The notes beneath the pieces are model-generated. The model searched no databases. It had not been told where the DNA came from and saw only the letters and a program-made list of their open reading frames with translations. DNA of 14,755 nt from Nocardioides sp. (GTDB taxonomy: Bacteria > Actinomycetota > Actinomycetes > Propionibacteriales > Nocardioidaceae), in NCBI GenBank assembly GCA_021166815.1, contig JAJPEO010000266.1, positions 1 through 14,755 of the forward strand, read 5' to 3'. Positions 7,596-14,755 of the stretch are shown piece after piece. The first letter of the stretch is position 1. Every line of letters begins with the position of its first letter. A program made the translations under genes and the position numbers.

Positions 7596-7679
7596 GCGCG
7601 AGTGGCGGAATAGGCAGACGCGCACGGTTCAGGTCCGTGTGTCCGAAAGGACGTGGGGGTTCAACTCCCCCCTCGCGCA
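7596..7679 (+). tRNA. tRNA-Leu (anticodon CAG)
   Basis: An 84-base class II tRNA that reads CUG codons, the major leucine codon in high-GC genomes. The acceptor arms GCGCGAG and CTCGCGC pair fully, with A as discriminator. The anticodon stem CACGG/CCGTG encloses the loop TTCAGGT, giving anticodon CAG at 7630-7632. A long variable arm (about 7640-7654) contains the GTCC/GGAC hairpin typical of tRNA-Leu. The T arm is GGGGG/CCCCC around TTCAACT. The 3' CCA is not encoded, as is common in actinobacteria. It is divergent from the fhaA operon and followed by a strong terminator. Confidence 0.97.
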
Positions 7680-7710
7680 CGTGGCGGCACAGCCGCTGAG
7701 CAGCACACCG

Positions 7711-8068: not shown

Positions 8069-8338
8069 TCAGTGGTCCAGGAAGACGTCCTCGTGGGTCG
8101 CGTCGGAGATGTCGTCGGACGTCGTGCCCAACAGCTGCCTGGCCAGGTCGGCCAGGGCGCGGGAGACCGCGAGCTCGTCGCCGATCTCGGGGATGTCGCT
8201 GTCCTTGCGGCCCAGCCGCGCGACCCCCCGCCCGGCGAGGCGTGTGGCCCCCGGTTCGGTGTGGAGGTGGGCGATCGCGTGGGTGACGCCGTCCTCCTCG
8301 GTGATCGTGATCGGGACCGTCCAGGTCTTGGTGTGCAT
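8069..8338 (-). CDS. DUF1876 (dsRBD-like) small protein
   Basis: An 89-residue soluble protein resembling the actinobacterial DUF1876 family, whose members adopt a dsRBD-like alpha/beta fold; function is not established. Recognisable features are the opening strand KTWTVPITITEEDG (4-17), the histidine-containing AIAHLHTE (about 21-28), the conserved PEIGDELAVSRAL stretch (about 50-62) and a C-terminal helix with an acidic tail. AAGGGGG lies seven bases before the ATG, supporting this start. It reads in the same direction as the accessory operon but is separated from it by 108 bases, and a strong hairpin follows. No membrane or signal segment is seen. Family assignment is from remembered family pattern, not a search. 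Confidence 0.85.
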   Translation of the reverse strand: MHTKTWTVPITITEEDGVTHAIAHLHTEPGATRLAGRGVARLGRKDSDIPEIGDELAVSRALADLARQLLGTTSDDISDATHEDVFLDH

Positions 8339-8446: not shown

Positions 8447-10522
8447 TCAGCGACCGGCTCCGGCCGGAAGGCGGGTGTTGAGGTAGGCCTGCTGGTCGGC
8501 AGGGATGGGAGGCGTGGCCACCGCCACGTCCGGGCCCCGTCGCACGATCTCCTCCGGCGCCGCCGGCAGCATCCAGTCGGCGAAGGACCGCGAGACGACC
8601 TGGTGCGGTCGTACCCATCGGATGCCGCCGAAGGCGTTGAGCTCGATCTCGCCCTCGAACTCGAACTTCCCGTTGTCGACCGGGTCGTAGGTGCCGGCGT
8701 AGCGGTAGGTGAAGGGCCAGGCCCGCGGGTCGGTGCCGCTGGGGATCCGCCCCATCAGCGACACGGTCACCGACAGCTCGGAGACCGTCCAGTCCGATGA
8801 CTCGCCCTGCGCCTTCTTGAAGACCGGCGTCTCGATCTCCCCGTACGCGTTTCCACCCCACTCGACGACGAGCTCGGCGTTCGCGTTGCCGACGTAGAGC
8901 TGCGGGAAGGACAGGAAGCGACGGGTGTACGTACGCCGCGCCGCGGGAGCTCCCGGCATCGCCAGCCGTGCCGGGGGGTCCAGGAGGCGGTCGGCCTTGT
9001 CGAAGCTGAGGGACAGGTTGCCGCGCTCGGCCTGGTACTGCGCCTGGGCGATGGACCCGGCTGCCAGCCCCCACTCCACCGCCTCGACGAGGCCGATCGC
9101 GGCGGCGGGGTTCTGCTGGTAGGAGTAGTCGCGGACCTCGCGCGACGCCGGCACCGTGACGGCGGGGACCGGGCCGGTGAAGAGCTCGGCCTCCGCGCGG
9201 CGTCGGACCTGGAGCGCGGCGCTGTCGACCAGCACCCCGTTGCGGCGCACCTTCGTCCACCTCGCGATCTCGGCCGGCACCTGGTCGAGCCGTCCCTCGC
9301 CGAGGAGCCGGTAGGCCGTCGAGGCGAGGAATGCGCGCCTGCCGATGCCGCACGCGAACGACACGAGCGCGTCGATCTGGGGCTGGGTGAGCGCCACCGG
9401 GATCTGCTCGGCGACGAGGTGCTCGGCGGCGGCGATCCGCCGGGCCAGCTCGGCCTCGCCCTCGGCGTCCCGCGGGGCGAGCGGTCGCTCCCATCCCTCG
9501 ACGAACGTCTTGCCCTGGGGCGAGAGCCGGCGTCCGGTCGACAGCGAGTACGCCGTGGCCACGGGCCGCAGCGCGCTCATCGCTCGGGTCGGCAGCACCG
9601 TCGTCACCAGGCTCATCCCGCTGGCGGCCGGCGCTGCCGGCAGCGCGTCGGTGGAGACGGTGAGGGATCCGTCACCGGCCACCTCGGGCCGGCTCGCGGC
9701 GATGACGTCGAGCCCGGACACGTCGATCGCCGGGGCGATGAGGCTGCCACCGGGCAGCACCGCCTGCGCGATGCTGCGCACCGCGTCGTTGAGCATCTCG
9801 ATGGTGCGGCGGTACGCCGACGTCACGGCGGTCTCGAAGGACGTCCCGCCCTTCCACGCGGTCCAGAAGAGGTGGGTGGCCGGTTCCGGCAGGTTGTTGT
9901 TGCGCACGGTCCCGGCGCTGGCCCGGGCGCCGGCATCGAGCCAGGCCTGGTTCAGGCTCGCGCCCACGCAGCTCATCATGTAGACGGTCCTGATGTTCAG
10001 GGGTCCTCCGAGCTCGGTGCGCAGGCCGCGGATCTTCGCCGCGTCGATCCCGCTGCCGGCGGCGATGTAGCCGCTGTCGCCGTGGGTGAGGACCAGCACG
10101 TCGACCACGTGGCCGGCCCGGGTCGCGGCGAAGAGCTTGTCGCGGAGCTCGGCGTACGTGGCCGTCGAGTTGCGCAGGACGTGCACCGCCCCGTAGGTCG
10201 CGGGTGCGGCGGCCTGGTAGCGGTTGAGGGTCAGCTCGGCCGACTCGAGCAGGTCGTCGGTGACGCCCTTCAGCCACTCCCGCAGCCGGGCGGCGACCGA
10301 GCCGCGGATGTCGTCGGAGACCAGCGACGACCCCGGCAGCAGGTCGACGACGCCGTCGATGAACGGCCGCAGGTTGAGGTCGATGCCGCCGTTCTCGAGC
10401 AGCACGACCAGCTCGCGGGACGTCGCTGCCTGGGGCACGACCCAGGAGGGCGTGGGGCGGTGGCCGTACGACGTCCGGCGCCGGGCGGTCGTGAGGAAGC
10501 GGTTGTCGTAGCCCATGGTCAT
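8447..10522 (-). CDS. Caspase/CHAT-like protease fused to a degenerate GH24 lysozyme-like domain
   Basis: A 691-residue cytoplasmic-looking protein, last of the accessory operon. The N-terminal part (about 105-255) has the clan CD cysteine-protease pattern: a hydrophobic strand ending in THG (H147) and, 38 residues on, a second strand ending in MMSC (C185), then AWLDAGARASAG, as in CHAT and caspase folds. The middle part (about 331-450) resembles phage lysozyme GH24: FVEGWE (340-345), LTQPQIDALVSF (378-389), a STAYRLL helix and an RRRAEAELF end (440-448). The segment that should carry the catalytic Asp and the Thr-Ile-Gly-Tyr-Gly loop is missing. The C-terminal 230 residues are beta-rich and unrecognised. 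AGAGAGGA precedes the ATG, one base after the preceding stop. A second ATG two codons in is an alternative start. Protease activity is inferred from motifs only. Confidence 0.8.
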   Translation of the reverse strand: MTMGYDNRFLTTARRRTSYGHRPTPSWVVPQAATSRELVVLLENGGIDLNLRPFIDGVVDLLPGSSLVSDDIRGSVAARLREWLKGVTDDLLESAELTLNRYQAAAPATYGAVHVLRNSTATYAELRDKLFAATRAGHVVDVLVLTHGDSGYIAAGSGIDAAKIRGLRTELGGPLNIRTVYMMSCVGASLNQAWLDAGARASAGTVRNNNLPEPATHLFWTAWKGGTSFETAVTSAYRRTIEMLNDAVRSIAQAVLPGGSLIAPAIDVSGLDVIAASRPEVAGDGSLTVSTDALPAAPAASGMSLVTTVLPTRAMSALRPVATAYSLSTGRRLSPQGKTFVEGWERPLAPRDAEGEAELARRIAAAEHLVAEQIPVALTQPQIDALVSFACGIGRRAFLASTAYRLLGEGRLDQVPAEIARWTKVRRNGVLVDSAALQVRRRAEAELFTGPVPAVTVPASREVRDYSYQQNPAAAIGLVEAVEWGLAAGSIAQAQYQAERGNLSLSFDKADRLLDPPARLAMPGAPAARRTYTRRFLSFPQLYVGNANAELVVEWGGNAYGEIETPVFKKAQGESSDWTVSELSVTVSLMGRIPSGTDPRAWPFTYRYAGTYDPVDNGKFEFEGEIELNAFGGIRWVRPHQVVSRSFADWMLPAAPEEIVRRGPDVAVATPPIPADQQAYLNTRLPAGAGR

Positions 10523-10523
10523 C

Positions 10524-12653
10524 TCACGGGTCCTCTCTCATCTTGCCGCTGTCGATCAGTGCCCTGACCAGCGAGTCGAGCTGGGCGGTCACCAGTGCTG
10601 CGGTCGCCGTCACGAGCTCGGCGTTGTTGGGGTCGGTGTAGGCCTCGATCGCACGCGTGATGGCGGCGCGGCCGCTGCTCGTCGGGTGCGGGGTGTAGCG
10701 CCAGACCTTCTGCTGCAGGCCCGAGGGGTTGAGGTTGCTGACCTGGATCGACGGGTCGCTGAGGTTGTCGACGGACTGCTGGACCGCCTTGCGCATGATC
10801 GCCAGCGAGGTGGGGTTCATCGAGCCGTCGCCGGTCGCCGTCCAAGCGGGGTCGCCGGCGTCGTTGACCACTTCCACGCCGTCGCGGTTGAGCTTGTCGT
10901 GGATGATCTTGACCGCCAGGTTCGCGATCCTGACCGGCTCGGCCTCGGCGGCCTGCTGGAGCACCTCCGCGAACATCCGCCAGTGCCGGATGTTGGGGTG
11001 CAGGTCCACGCAGTAGCCGTACGCGCACAGCGGTGCGCTGGACTCCAGTTGGCTGAAGCGCTGCGCCACGCGTCCGGTGTACGAGCGCTCGGCGACCTTG
11101 CTGAAGAAGGACCTCGCCGCGTCGTTGAGACCACCGCCGGAGAAGAAGCGGCTCCGGAACCGCGCGATGACGGACTCCTTGTTGATGAGGTGTCCCGCGG
11201 CGAAGGCGTCGGTGAGGAAGTGGTCCGCGAAGGCGTTGGTGATGAGCGGTCCCTCGAGGAACGGGCTCGCGTTCGGGTGCTGCAGGACCAGCTGGGAGGC
11301 CTCGTTCAGTGCCTGCTCGTGAAGCTCCTCCCAGCGTCGGCGGTTGTCCTGCTCCCGGCCGGCGGTCATCCCGGTGAGGGCGGCCGGGGAGAAGTGGTCG
11401 TAGTTGGTCTCGGCCAGCTGGAGGTAGCGACCACCGGTGGCGGAGTCCCACTCGCTGTTGCTGACGTCCTTGCCGGGATCACGCCGTCCGTCGCGGTAGT
11501 ACTCGGTGTTCCGGGTGATCAGCGCCTTGAGCCGGGAGAGCTCGGCGGGCGCGGCGTTCTTCAGCTCGGCGACGGAGCCGAAGAAGTCGCCCATCGCGAT
11601 CACCTGGCCGTACGAGAACGGCACGCCCTGCCCCGAGCCGACGCGCAGCTGGTCGGGGTAGAGGTCACCCGCCGCGAGCACGTGCTCGCCGGTGTCGAAC
11701 ATCGCGGTGCTCCGCTCGGGAGCCACGGTGAGCGCCAGCGAGGAGGCCCCGCAGCCGGCGTGCCAGTCGGGGATCGAGTCCCACGGGCCGCGCTGGTGGT
11801 ACGCCGCGATCGTCGCCGGCGGTGTGGGCCGGTTGCGGTCGATGGCCTCGAGGTCGTGGATGAACTCAGCGGTCCCGGTGCTCGCCGGCACCGCCGCGAC
11901 CACGGGGGCGCTCGAGGCCGCGGCGGGCGTCGCCTTCTCCACGTGGCGCTGGTCCTCGAGCCGGTCGAAGACGTCGAAGCGGCGGCGCAGCTCGACCTCG
12001 CCGAGGTCGAACGTGTTCGAGTGCTCGAGGCTGGCCGCGATCCGGTCGAAGATCGCGTGCTGGTCCGAGGGGCTCGGGCCCGGAGGCGGGGGTGGGGGCG
12101 GCGCGGCCTGGCCGCGCTCGCGCAGGCCCCCCGTCTGGGGGTCGTAGACCTTGCGACCGGAGAGGATCGCCTCCATGTCGGCTGCCAGCTGGTCGTCGTC
12201 GGGCGTGGTGGGCTTCGCAGCGACCGGCTTCTCCCCGCCCGGCGCCGCGTCGGGTGCGGTCACGGGTGGGGCTGCCGGGGGTCGGGAGGGCGTGGGGTCG
12301 CTCGTCCGCTGCTGGGCCTGCTCGGGCACCGGTGGCGGGGCTGCTTCCGGTGCAGGAGTCGGCGGTGCGGGCTCGAGCGGCGGCGCGGGCGCTGGGGCGG
12401 TGTCGACGGGCGGCGCGGTGTCGATTGGCGGCGCGGTGGCCGTGGGCGGCTCGGGCCGGTCGACGACGTACTCCTCGAGCGGGGCCTCGGGCGTCGCCGG
12501 CTCCAGCACCTCGGCGCCGGTGTCGGCCGAGAGGCTCAGGGCCACCGGGCCCGCGGTGGCCGCTCGCGCCGGCCGCCGGCGTCGCGGAAGGCCGTAGTGC
12601 CCGCCCACCAGGGCGGCGTAGTCATCGTTGCGGGTCATCGGTCGTGCGTACAT
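10524..12653 (-). CDS. Pro/Ala-rich protein with phospholipase C/S1-P1 nuclease-like metal motif
   Basis: A 709-residue protein with no signal peptide or membrane helix. Residues 1-195 are low complexity, dominated by Pro, Ala and Thr and ending in a seven-proline run (185-191). A conserved-looking helical segment HAIFDRIAASLEHSNTFDLG follows (199-218). The globular part starts near 285: MFDTGEH (318-324), a YGQVIAMGDFFGS segment (348-360), and then ADHFLTDAFAAGH, in which H478, D482 and H488 form HxxxDxxxxxH. That spacing equals the His118-Asp122-His128 zinc ligands of Bacillus cereus phospholipase C and the related S1/P1 nucleases. Further His/Asp candidates are D419-H420, H445 and H585. 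Hydrolase activity is unproven. The start ATG lies six bases after the previous stop; an in-frame ATG five codons later is the alternative. Confidence 0.75.
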   Translation of the reverse strand: MYARPMTRNDDYAALVGGHYGLPRRRRPARAATAGPVALSLSADTGAEVLEPATPEAPLEEYVVDRPEPPTATAPPIDTAPPVDTAPAPAPPLEPAPPTPAPEAAPPPVPEQAQQRTSDPTPSRPPAAPPVTAPDAAPGGEKPVAAKPTTPDDDQLAADMEAILSGRKVYDPQTGGLRERGQAAPPPPPPPGPSPSDQHAIFDRIAASLEHSNTFDLGEVELRRRFDVFDRLEDQRHVEKATPAAASSAPVVAAVPASTGTAEFIHDLEAIDRNRPTPPATIAAYHQRGPWDSIPDWHAGCGASSLALTVAPERSTAMFDTGEHVLAAGDLYPDQLRVGSGQGVPFSYGQVIAMGDFFGSVAELKNAAPAELSRLKALITRNTEYYRDGRRDPGKDVSNSEWDSATGGRYLQLAETNYDHFSPAALTGMTAGREQDNRRRWEELHEQALNEASQLVLQHPNASPFLEGPLITNAFADHFLTDAFAAGHLINKESVIARFRSRFFSGGGLNDAARSFFSKVAERSYTGRVAQRFSQLESSAPLCAYGYCVDLHPNIRHWRMFAEVLQQAAEAEPVRIANLAVKIIHDKLNRDGVEVVNDAGDPAWTATGDGSMNPTSLAIMRKAVQQSVDNLSDPSIQVSNLNPSGLQQKVWRYTPHPTSSGRAAITRAIEAYTDPNNAELVTATAALVTAQLDSLVRALIDSGKMREDP

Positions 12654-13394: not shown

Positions 13395-13666
13395 GGGTCC
13401 ACCTCCCCGCGCACGGCGGTGAACCGGACCTGGTGGAGCACCGGCAGCCAGCTGGTCTCCACGTGGTAGAGCGGGGGCGCCCCGCCCAGGACGACCCGTC
13501 CGCTCGCGTCGACGACGACGTCGAGCTCCACCGGCGTCTCGATCTCCAGCCCGGTCACCGTCGACCGCACGCCGGCCACCTCGTCGACCAGGTCGGGCAG
13601 GTCGGGGAGCAGCAGCGGCACCAGCTCGCCGACCGGTACGAACGCCTCGTCGATGCGGGCGTTCAT
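13391..13666 (-). CDS. Small conserved-looking protein of unknown function
   Basis: A 91-residue protein that I do not recognise. An N-terminal hydrophobic helix segment (ELVPLLLPDLPDLVDEVAGV, about 14-33, too broken by Pro and Asp for a membrane span) is followed by strands (LEIETPVELDVVVD, about 40-53) and a C-terminal strand pair ending in QVRFTAV. The helix-then-strand order resembles the N-terminal region of the next gene, so the two may be related small domains. GGAG lies six bases before the ATG. Both ends overlap neighbours as ATGA, which indicates fixed-ratio coupled translation with the upstream beta-rich protein and the downstream three-part protein. Confidence 0.75.
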   Translation of the reverse strand: MNARIDEAFVPVGELVPLLLPDLPDLVDEVAGVRSTVTGLEIETPVELDVVVDASGRVVLGGAPPLYHVETSWLPVLHQVRFTAVRGEVDP

Positions 13667-14755
13667 CCCGCGCTCCAAGGTGCGATCGAGCGCGCGGGTT
13701 CCAGGCCGACCAGGGTGTCCGAGACGACCTGGTGGCCCTCGAACGCGTACGCCGAGCCCGGGCCGTCCGCAGCCTGGTCCTCGCCGTCGCCGGTTCCCCC
13801 GTCGTCTGCCCCGGCCCCGCTGGTGGACACCAGCCCGAGCACCCGTACGGCCTCGACCACCGGGAACGTGACCTCGCTGGTGGTGACGGCGAGCACCTGG
13901 CCACGCGGGTCGACGTCCTGGGGCCGGGCGACGGTGAACGTGCGCAGCGCCGGCACCGGGACCACCCAGACCAGGCCGCGGGTGTGCCGCCGCCCGTCGA
14001 AGCGCACCGCGAGCTCCGCGTCGCCGCCCTGCGAGGCGAGCCACGCCGGGGCGGCGAACGCAGCCGCGGTGGTCTCGTCGATCGGTGCCGCCTCGGGCCA
14101 CAGCGCCCTCAGCTTCGCCAGCTCGTGCACGCTGACCTGGAGGCCGCTGCGCATCCGGCCGGTGGTCGTGGCCCGCAGGCCGCCCTGGGCCTCGCCGGCG
14201 AGGGCACGCACCTCCATCAGCGCGTTGGCGGGGTCGGCCGTGAGCACGACGCTGTAGCGCATCGTCACGTCGATCCCCCACAGCGGCCGCTCCTTCGTCG
14301 GCGGCGTCGAGGACCAGACCTTGTTCCAGAACGGCCGGAACCGGGTCATGTCGGTGAGCTCGACCCGCTCACCGGCCGGTGCGCCGGCGGCGACGACGTA
14401 CGCCCCGCCGGTCAGGACCACGACCTGGCTCGCCGTGCACTGCCGGGAGCCCGCGGCGGTCGGCCAGCGCAGCTGGGCGAACACCTCGAGCTCGGCGTCG
14501 GCCGGCAGTGCCTCGAGCGCGGTCGGCTCGAGCTGGACCCCGACCTCGGAACCGGGCGCCACGTCGGTGAGCCGTTCGTCGCGCTGCAGCAGGTCTGGTC
14601 CGGCACCCGCGCGGCGTACGACGACGCGCAGGATCGCGCGCGGCAGCGGCGTGGCGGGGCCGCCCGCGCCGGTCTCCACGCGCCACCGCAGGGACACCGC
14701 CCGGTCACGGACGAACACCGGGCGCGGGCAGTCGAGCCAGGCCACCGGTTCGGCC
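13663..14755 (-). CDS. Beta-rich protein of unknown function (5' end beyond window)
   Basis: At least 363 residues, continuing past the right edge. The first in-window start codon, a GTG at 14745, has no ribosome site, so the true start probably lies outside. Counting from that GTG, residues 1-112 alternate strands as in an Ig-like fold (VSLRWRVE, ILRVVVRR, LEVFAQLRW). A central part holds an aromatic motif RFRPFWNKVW (135-144) and MRYSVVL (162-168). Strands continue to about 305, then an acidic Gly/Asp linker (about 310-330) and a short tail. No catalytic motif, signal peptide or membrane helix is visible. It is the most upstream visible gene of the accessory operon and its stop overlaps the next ATG. 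It could be structural or a binding protein; function unknown. Confidence 0.75.
   Translation of the reverse strand, partial: AEPVAWLDCPRPVFVRDRAVSLRWRVETGAGGPATPLPRAILRVVVRRAGAGPDLLQRDERLTDVAPGSEVGVQLEPTALEALPADAELEVFAQLRWPTAAGSRQCTASQVVVLTGGAYVVAAGAPAGERVELTDMTRFRPFWNKVWSSTPPTKERPLWGIDVTMRYSVVLTADPANALMEVRALAGEAQGGLRATTTGRMRSGLQVSVHELAKLRALWPEAAPIDETTAAAFAAPAWLASQGGDAELAVRFDGRRHTRGLVWVVPVPALRTFTVARPQDVDPRGQVLAVTTSEVTFPVVEAVRVLGLVSTSGAGADDGGTGDGEDQAADGPGSAYAFEGHQVVSDTLVGLEPARSIAPWSAG

Follow-up and report, generated by a model that had tools for sequence, protein, structure and literature searches.

A caspase-fold protease joined to a shortened lysozyme domain is part of a conserved multi-gene cassette in Nocardioides sp.

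The window analysed here is a 14,755-nucleotide stretch of Nocardioides sp. DNA (contig JAJPEO010000266.1, assembly GCA_021166815.1), and it forms a complete contig (C333) of a 2.83-Mb assembly (400 contigs, 89.7% complete). A locus from a genome of the same genus (L018) agrees with one of Nocardioides zhouii at 2031 of 2031 bases, which makes Nocardioides the most likely host genus. Its gene A encodes a protein in which a caspase-fold protease, a shortened lysozyme domain of family GH24 and a conserved C-terminal domain follow one another, and genes B, C and D and the C-terminal part of gene E lie beside it. A second contig of the same genome (C2, locus L025) holds a LuxR-type regulator gene, a gene for an S8 subtilase (E 2.7e-46), gene G and, at the contig end, the first 90-odd residues of gene F. 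A preliminary description of gene A, made from the nucleotide sequence, observed the protein correctly but understated it, and its interpretation was right in part; the cassette was invisible to it, partly because the assembly splits these genes over two contigs.

The N-terminal module of the gene A protein has the caspase-hemoglobinase alpha/beta fold that defines clan CD, and it shares 11-13% identity with the gingipains RgpB and Kgp (family C25). A core strand (residues 139-145) is followed by His147 and the next strand (177-182) by Cys185, in the order expected of this clan. Both residues are invariant in the 51 near full-length rows of the alignment, window row included, and both the clan CD fold and the conserved His/Cys pair first proposed for the protein are borne out. 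A survey of the two residues among homologues had been named beforehand as a check. The profile of the protease module, for which most of the 91 first-search proteins, themselves within the set surveyed, were also the source, matches 180 of 180 proteins, with the Cys present in all of them and the His in 178. This set consists of those 91 proteins (the window's own included), from a search that scored the 8000 candidates with most shared words, and 89 new ones found among the 120 matches listed of 153 in a later search. In a 90-row alignment, 23 columns are invariant over a 330-residue stretch, and Cys185 is therefore among the most constrained sites. The window protein has no Pfam match to the CHAT, Peptidase_C14 or C25 families at E up to 1; 14 divergent members likewise have none at E <=10, a range in which the HMMER filters drop most matches above 0.1, and no caspase in the PDB was matched by sequence profile. 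Fold and dyad are consistent with an active cysteine protease, an activity that enters the tentative release model given below. The segment after the protease is also strongly conserved (S277, P279, G283, D292, L294, T307-P311) and remains joined to it where the module is C-terminal; it may be a pseudosubstrate or a cut site.

The lysozyme-like region predicted in the same chain is supported by a Pfam match to PF00959 (E 5.9e-14, 52.9 bits against a cut-off of 22.3) and by the PDB lysozyme 6h9d, which matches at E 1.8e-8 with the window protein and at 3.5e-21 by profile. Glu, Asp and Thr are the catalytic residues of GH24. In the window, Glu345 is present and the GYGT hairpin is absent: the Pfam match begins at model position 37 of 125, and those of the relatives at loci L014 and L013 begin at position 2 or 1. 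Glu345 is retained in 51 of 51 rows. Its spacing to Leu378 is 32 residues in the window, 23-36 in 45 of the 51 rows and 67 in six full forms, and the stretch deleted from the short forms is the location of the hairpin in the full ones. This suggests that the window's GH24 domain is probably inactive. No support was obtained for a lysozyme part that serves only to sense wall damage: relatives possess a complete GH24 domain with the hairpin, and the shortened form of the window clade keeps the Glu. Sorting the 91 first-search proteins by text pattern gives approximate classes of 52 short forms, 21 with GYGT and 18 with neither; the last class includes four proteins (P0035, P0048, P0051, P0082) to which Pfam nevertheless assigns GH24.

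Relatives of gene A exchange mainly wall-active modules around the protease. According to precomputed Pfam assignments, 77 of the 91 proteins carry GH24 (59 alone, 15 with C70, 2 with C92 and 1 with a hedgehog-type domain) and 14 have no domain recorded beside the protease, so that the protease, and not the lysozyme, is the constant part of the family. Peptidase_M15 is a further partner in other relatives, as are PF01183 in P0258, PF01832 in P0284 and PF13529 in P0222, which we take to be GH25, GH73 and C39-like, respectively. The order is reversed in P0089 and P0090, where the protease stands behind GH24; in P0231 it forms the final 283 residues, and in the lone protein of locus L015 it is joined to an OmpA domain (E 3.3e-8). 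Other wall-active module types thus occur within the same protein, which is compatible with the effector role suggested earlier. The conserved C-terminal domain of gene A (451-686) is present in 135 of the 180 proteins and in 13 of the 14 without a recorded Pfam domain; at L012 it is a separate open reading frame upstream of the protease-GH24 gene, and at L016 it alone was matched. Twelve of the 180 A-type proteins carry the C-terminal domain of B as a fusion after the protease; P0042 and P0091 match this domain as well and were read as a read-through and a frame-shifted record. Exchangeable toxin-type modules therefore stand beside a conserved part, as in polymorphic toxins.

Two side observations concern these proteins. 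In P0083, a protease-GH24 protein, the region at about residues 540-660, as located by reading, matches the Pfam family HH_signal, the hedgehog amino-terminal domain (E 4e-52); hedgehog-like DD-peptidases exist in bacteria. The tripeptide QS(L/M/F) occurs in linkers of A-, B- and E-type proteins, often at module borders. It was counted 42 times in 25 A-type proteins against a mean of 9.8 and a maximum of 18 in 200 shuffles, a count inflated by homologous positions in related proteins and by GQSF inside the protease module. It could be a processing or docking signal.

The preliminary description treated gene A as acting on its own, whereas its protein proves to be a member of a conserved cassette. 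A scan of one-per-species genome contigs with the single A protein found no relatives, and a second, alignment-based scan of such contigs gave 15 loci that encode relatives. The order S8 subtilase-G-F-E-D-C-B-A is common to Mycobacterium, Agromyces, Chloroflexota and Caballeronia and is also present in Acidobacteria, Chromatiales and Chitinophagales; a Gammaproteobacterium has only part of it, on a contig that stops within E. The assemblies of Microbacterium, Nocardioides zhouii and Streptomyces ureilyticus divide the cassette between contigs, and the remaining halves comprise S8-G-F-E-D-C; in Streptomyces B was not seen, both contigs ending around it. Twelve genomes were compared, namely 11 of the 15 loci and the window, all chosen for holding A; L009 and L012 (3.7- and 3.1-kb contigs), L015 and L016 stand outside this count. 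A, C, D and E occur in all 12, S8 and G in 11 and F in 10, the missing ones falling at contig ends. Gene C is present in one copy each in 11 other searched genomes with A, L015 being the exception. Junctions between genes measured at three loci span -11 to +41 bases, with one of 132. Pairwise distances of the cassette genes correlate across genomes (r 0.50-0.90): for 17 of 21 gene pairs the observed value was reached by 0 of 2000 permutations, and for the other four, all involving F, by 1-17. As a separate observation, the assemblies that break inside the cassette do so in E/F in the window genome and around B in Microbacterium, N. zhouii and Streptomyces (L002, L004, L005).

The distribution of the cassette is patchy. 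Alignment A1 retrieved 3 of 293 genomes of the order, namely the window's own, N. zhouii and one more whose match (43 bits) was confined to the lysozyme part. Among 396 genomes of the phylum, gene C turned up in that of the window alone. In the protein collection, gene C has 778 relatives at E <= 0.001, and among the 120 matches listed the sources are mostly jgi, lgn and ena. The A and C proteins of Streptomyces and N. zhouii stand at roughly the same distance from the Chloroflexota and Acidobacteria copies as from most of the other actinobacterial ones, and these pairwise distances point to spread by horizontal transfer. The protease module was not found on plasmids; gene C occurs in 4 of 72,556 plasmid records, three cyanobacterial ones (Tolypothrix/Microchaete) and one from Burkholderia pyrrocinia (28% identity). 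The Tolypothrix plasmid (L021, 4606-14777) has a core version in which a PG_binding_1 protein separates S8 from G and C is succeeded by an IS701 transposase. On the B. pyrrocinia plasmid (L022, 8407-22975) a distant, rearranged version includes DUF3467, an Amidase_2-C92-C70 protein, a gene that is F-like by eye, a D-sized gene, C, S8 and genes with F- and G-like matches.

The remaining cassette genes are listed with their coordinates in Table 1; no core protein reached the cut-off of any Pfam family. The C-terminal domain of gene B contains a HFLTDAFxxGH motif and further invariant His and Asp residues in 8 of 8 aligned rows, a pattern suggestive of a metal site. A zinc phospholipase C/S1-P1 nuclease assignment, prompted by the motif, was set aside, with no Pfam family over the cut-off and no meaningful PDB match. 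At L014 the B gene bears Peptidase_M15 in place of its usual C-terminal domain, and at L013 B consists of the N-terminal part only. For gene C, a suspected resemblance to Trypco2 was not supported (hhalign against three Trypco2 proteins, probability 0.4%, E 0.17), and Trypco2 is absent from the Pfam matches of 32 gene C members at E up to 1. Its only PDB match was NusA at E 0.044, and Ribosomal_S17e (0.0011) and Phasin (0.0089), matched in Pfam by some members, were sub-threshold and discarded. Gene F shows no similarity to gene C and no PDB match; DUF2589, considered as its family, was not matched in Pfam by F of L003 or L014, and Endonuclea_NS_2 (E 0.0028, F of L014) was sub-threshold and likewise set aside. 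In all 11 cassette genomes with the end of gene G present (L025, L003, L006, L007, L010, L011, L013, L014, L033, L034 and L035), its product terminates in (D/E/P)W(D/N)F, preceded by a linker of low conservation, and at Tolypothrix L021 it terminates in DWDV; this conserved peptide looks like a docking tail. The LuxR-type gene was matched immediately upstream of S8 in all six actinobacterial genomes, counting that of the window, and was unmatched in five other upstream stretches examined, of which L029 offers only 2.1 kb.

Table 1. Positions of cassette genes, protein modules and neighbouring features (window coordinates unless L025 is given)
Feature	Position	Strand	Remark
Gene A, 691 aa	8447..10522	-	caspase-fold protease, shortened GH24, conserved C-terminal domain
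Caspase-fold (CHAT/gingipain/separase-like) module, residues 31-311	9590..10432	-	includes conserved tail S277..P311
Codon of putative catalytic His147	10082..10084	-	
Codon of putative catalytic Cys185	9968..9970	-	
GH24 (Phage_lysozyme) remnant, residues 352-444	9191..9469	-	Pfam model positions 37-125 of 125
Glu345 codon	9488..9490	-	aligned with Glu of full GH24 relatives
C-terminal conserved domain of A, residues 451-686	8465..9172	-	
Gene B, 709 aa	10524..12653	-	proline-rich N-terminus containing a conserved segment; C-terminal domain exchangeable
B C-terminal domain, residues 318-709	10527..11702	-	motif NAFADHFLTDAFAAGHL
B conserved N-terminal segment, residues ~196-235	11949..12068	-	kept where C-terminal payload differs
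Gene C, 244 aa	12660..13394	-	best cassette marker; weak sub-threshold TIG match at end
Gene D, 91 aa	13391..13666	-	4-base overlaps with C and E
Gene E, C-terminal part	13663..14755	-	runs off contig
Gene G	L025 324-2282	-	contig C2 of window genome
LuxR-type regulator (GerE, E 3.7e-17)	L025 3646-4377	-	directly upstream of S8
Rv2632c-like small protein (PF08962, E 6.1e-28)	8069..8338	-	downstream of gene A
tRNA-Leu(CAG)	7596..7680	+	adjoins downstream cassette end

Downstream of gene A lie the gene for the Rv2632c-like protein and the tRNA-Leu gene. The latter was considered as an integration site and rejected, as 21 other loci yield only tRNA-Thr (L006) and tRNA-Tyr (L010). Also downstream, reading of the open reading frames alone suggests an operon of kinase, penicillin-binding protein, RodA/FtsW, PP2C phosphatase and FHA genes. 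No compositional foreignness was seen, with GC at third codon positions at 93-96% in the cassette genes; the out-of-frame values of rodA and the first FHA gene are excluded. Two terminator-like sites were found, both within genes, against 1.2 expected by chance, and promoter-like sites numbered zero.

The architecture of gene A can be compared with that of known systems. The claim that no named family has this protease-lysozyme order agrees with scans of Pfam, PHROGs, NCBIfam and PADLOC, which returned none. Gingipains are secreted, host-directed proteases without GH24, whereas the gene A protease is joined to it. The PF00959 match is shared with GH24 endolysins and with SpmX, but the window clade lacks the hairpin that, as we take it, carries the Asp and Thr. 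Caspase-like domains of polymorphic toxins have been proposed (Zhang et al. 2012, PMC3482391) to be peptidases that release toxin modules, so the working principle considered below has a precedent. The two also share the union of a caspase-fold peptidase with exchangeable toxin-type modules, peptidoglycan-cleaving ones included, in one chain, and a broad, patchy distribution. Unlike in polymorphic toxins, the peptidase here forms the constant part and in most cases stands at the N-terminus, neither a secretion leader nor an immunity gene was recognised in the cassette, and a fixed multi-gene set with a subtilase accompanies gene A. CHAT proteases such as SAVED-CHAT and the TPR-CHAT of Craspase (PMC9729208) differ in that gene A has no recognised TPR or SAVED sensor and is joined to wall-active modules. 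In the NucA/trypsin 'System 3' conflict systems, as described by Kaur et al. 2020 (PMC7159879), peptidases are coupled to lysozyme-like and papain-like peptidoglycan peptidase effectors. The cassette resembles them in placing several peptidases with such wall enzymes, but their EAD1 and trypsin parts were not recognised in the cassette scans.

The favoured reading, held tentatively and at somewhat less than an even chance, is that the gene A protein is a multi-domain effector of an undescribed cassette. The products of G, F, E, D and C would assemble into a complex, and A and B would be its exchangeable cargo. A simple hydropathy scan gave no clear signal peptides or membrane helices, with no segment over the threshold in the window's A-D, S8 and G, and a cytoplasmic complex is therefore proposed. 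Once this complex is triggered or delivered, the subtilase in trans and the caspase-fold module in cis would cut the cargo free, and the freed wall hydrolases would act on the wall. A stronger version, which we consider doubtful, is that LuxR-S8-G-F-E-D-C-B-A is an undescribed nano-assembly, that is, a cytoplasmic particle of five families without known relatives, carrying interchangeable, caspase-armed wall-degrading cargo that two protease classes would release. No paper was recognised as describing the cassette, although a search of the open literature only, in part by rare word combinations, is a weak novelty test.

Several observations weigh against the cargo-release reading. No holin, leader, ATPase, tail-like or immunity gene was recognised in the cassette, so that delivery is without direct support, and scans of Pfam, PHROGs and NCBIfam found no delivery domain, G to C being without an assigned family. 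The negative on immunity is limited in that D, the one small conserved gene that the cassette comparison brought out, was not tried in this role and that the genes downstream of A were not systematically compared. The E proteins of L003, L006 and L007 and the A protein of L003 just exceed the hydropathy threshold, which makes membrane contact possible. The protease module occurs without C in the L015 genome, so that C accompanies A in 12 of the 13 genomes searched, and joint inheritance of the genes as an operon is no proof that their products form a single complex. Finally, the 14 proteins with no other recorded Pfam domain and the probable inactivity of the window's GH24 imply that wall cleavage is not the only task of A.

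Alternatively, the cassette may serve programmed self-lysis, with LuxR and the complex as sensors of stress or phage and the proteases as activators of the hydrolases, in an altruistic or developmental death of the cell. This is unlikely, although it would account for two protease classes beside wall hydrolases without clear secretion signals, for the LuxR gene upstream in the six actinobacterial cassettes and for the patchy distribution; a CHAT protease has elsewhere been linked to a death effector (PMC9729208). Window A-E gave no PADLOC match, however, no sensor NTPase, nucleotide-binding module or holin was recognised, and cytoplasmic wall hydrolases would need a route across the membrane, of which none was seen. 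Decidedly less probable is a role in signalling, in which relics that bind peptidoglycan (the shortened GH24, the OmpA domain of L015) would anchor the protease at the envelope and the protease would cut a partner such as a regulator, given that many relatives add catalytic-type hydrolases instead of binders and that no export signal for reaching the wall is present. Extracellular scavenging or predation is improbable to a similarly marked degree or more. The proteins would leave by an unrecognised route and feed the cell by digesting other bacteria (walls, proteins and, perhaps, lipids), in keeping with a payload mix of glycosidases, DD-peptidase types and papain-like enzymes, with a B domain that we presume to be phospholipase-like, and with one homologue from Sandaracinus, which we take to be a myxobacterium; against this, the hydropathy scan shows no signal peptides, and five conserved proteins without recognised enzyme domains exceed the need of simple secreted enzymes. 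Descent from a domesticated prophage lysis or tail module, with GH24 and M15 as endolysin relics, is very improbable and already weak: the payload domains do score best against phage endolysin families, but only these lysins resemble phage proteins, gene C having no homologue in 50,697 phage records, gene A none confirmed in IMG/VR, and no convincing PHROG match existing for G, F, E and D of L003 or F and E of L014 (best E 0.014) or for C and the window's D and E (best 0.079).

These results add to clan CD a divergent caspase-fold branch that the sequence searches made here missed, and they tie it, over several phyla, to peptidoglycan-hydrolase modules in one conserved cassette. Five proteins of this cassette have no convincing relative in the scans, yet are co-inherited from Bacteroidota to Actinomycetota. 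Both this core and the fusion of a protease with wall enzymes in a multi-phylum cassette are worth experimental work. If the proteolytic release model is true, it would link a caspase-type protease directly to wall destruction, and if it is false, the cassette is still a defined gene set open to deletion and expression tests. The nano-assembly, if real, would represent a machine for delivery or lysis that has no kinship with contractile, type VI or phage systems.
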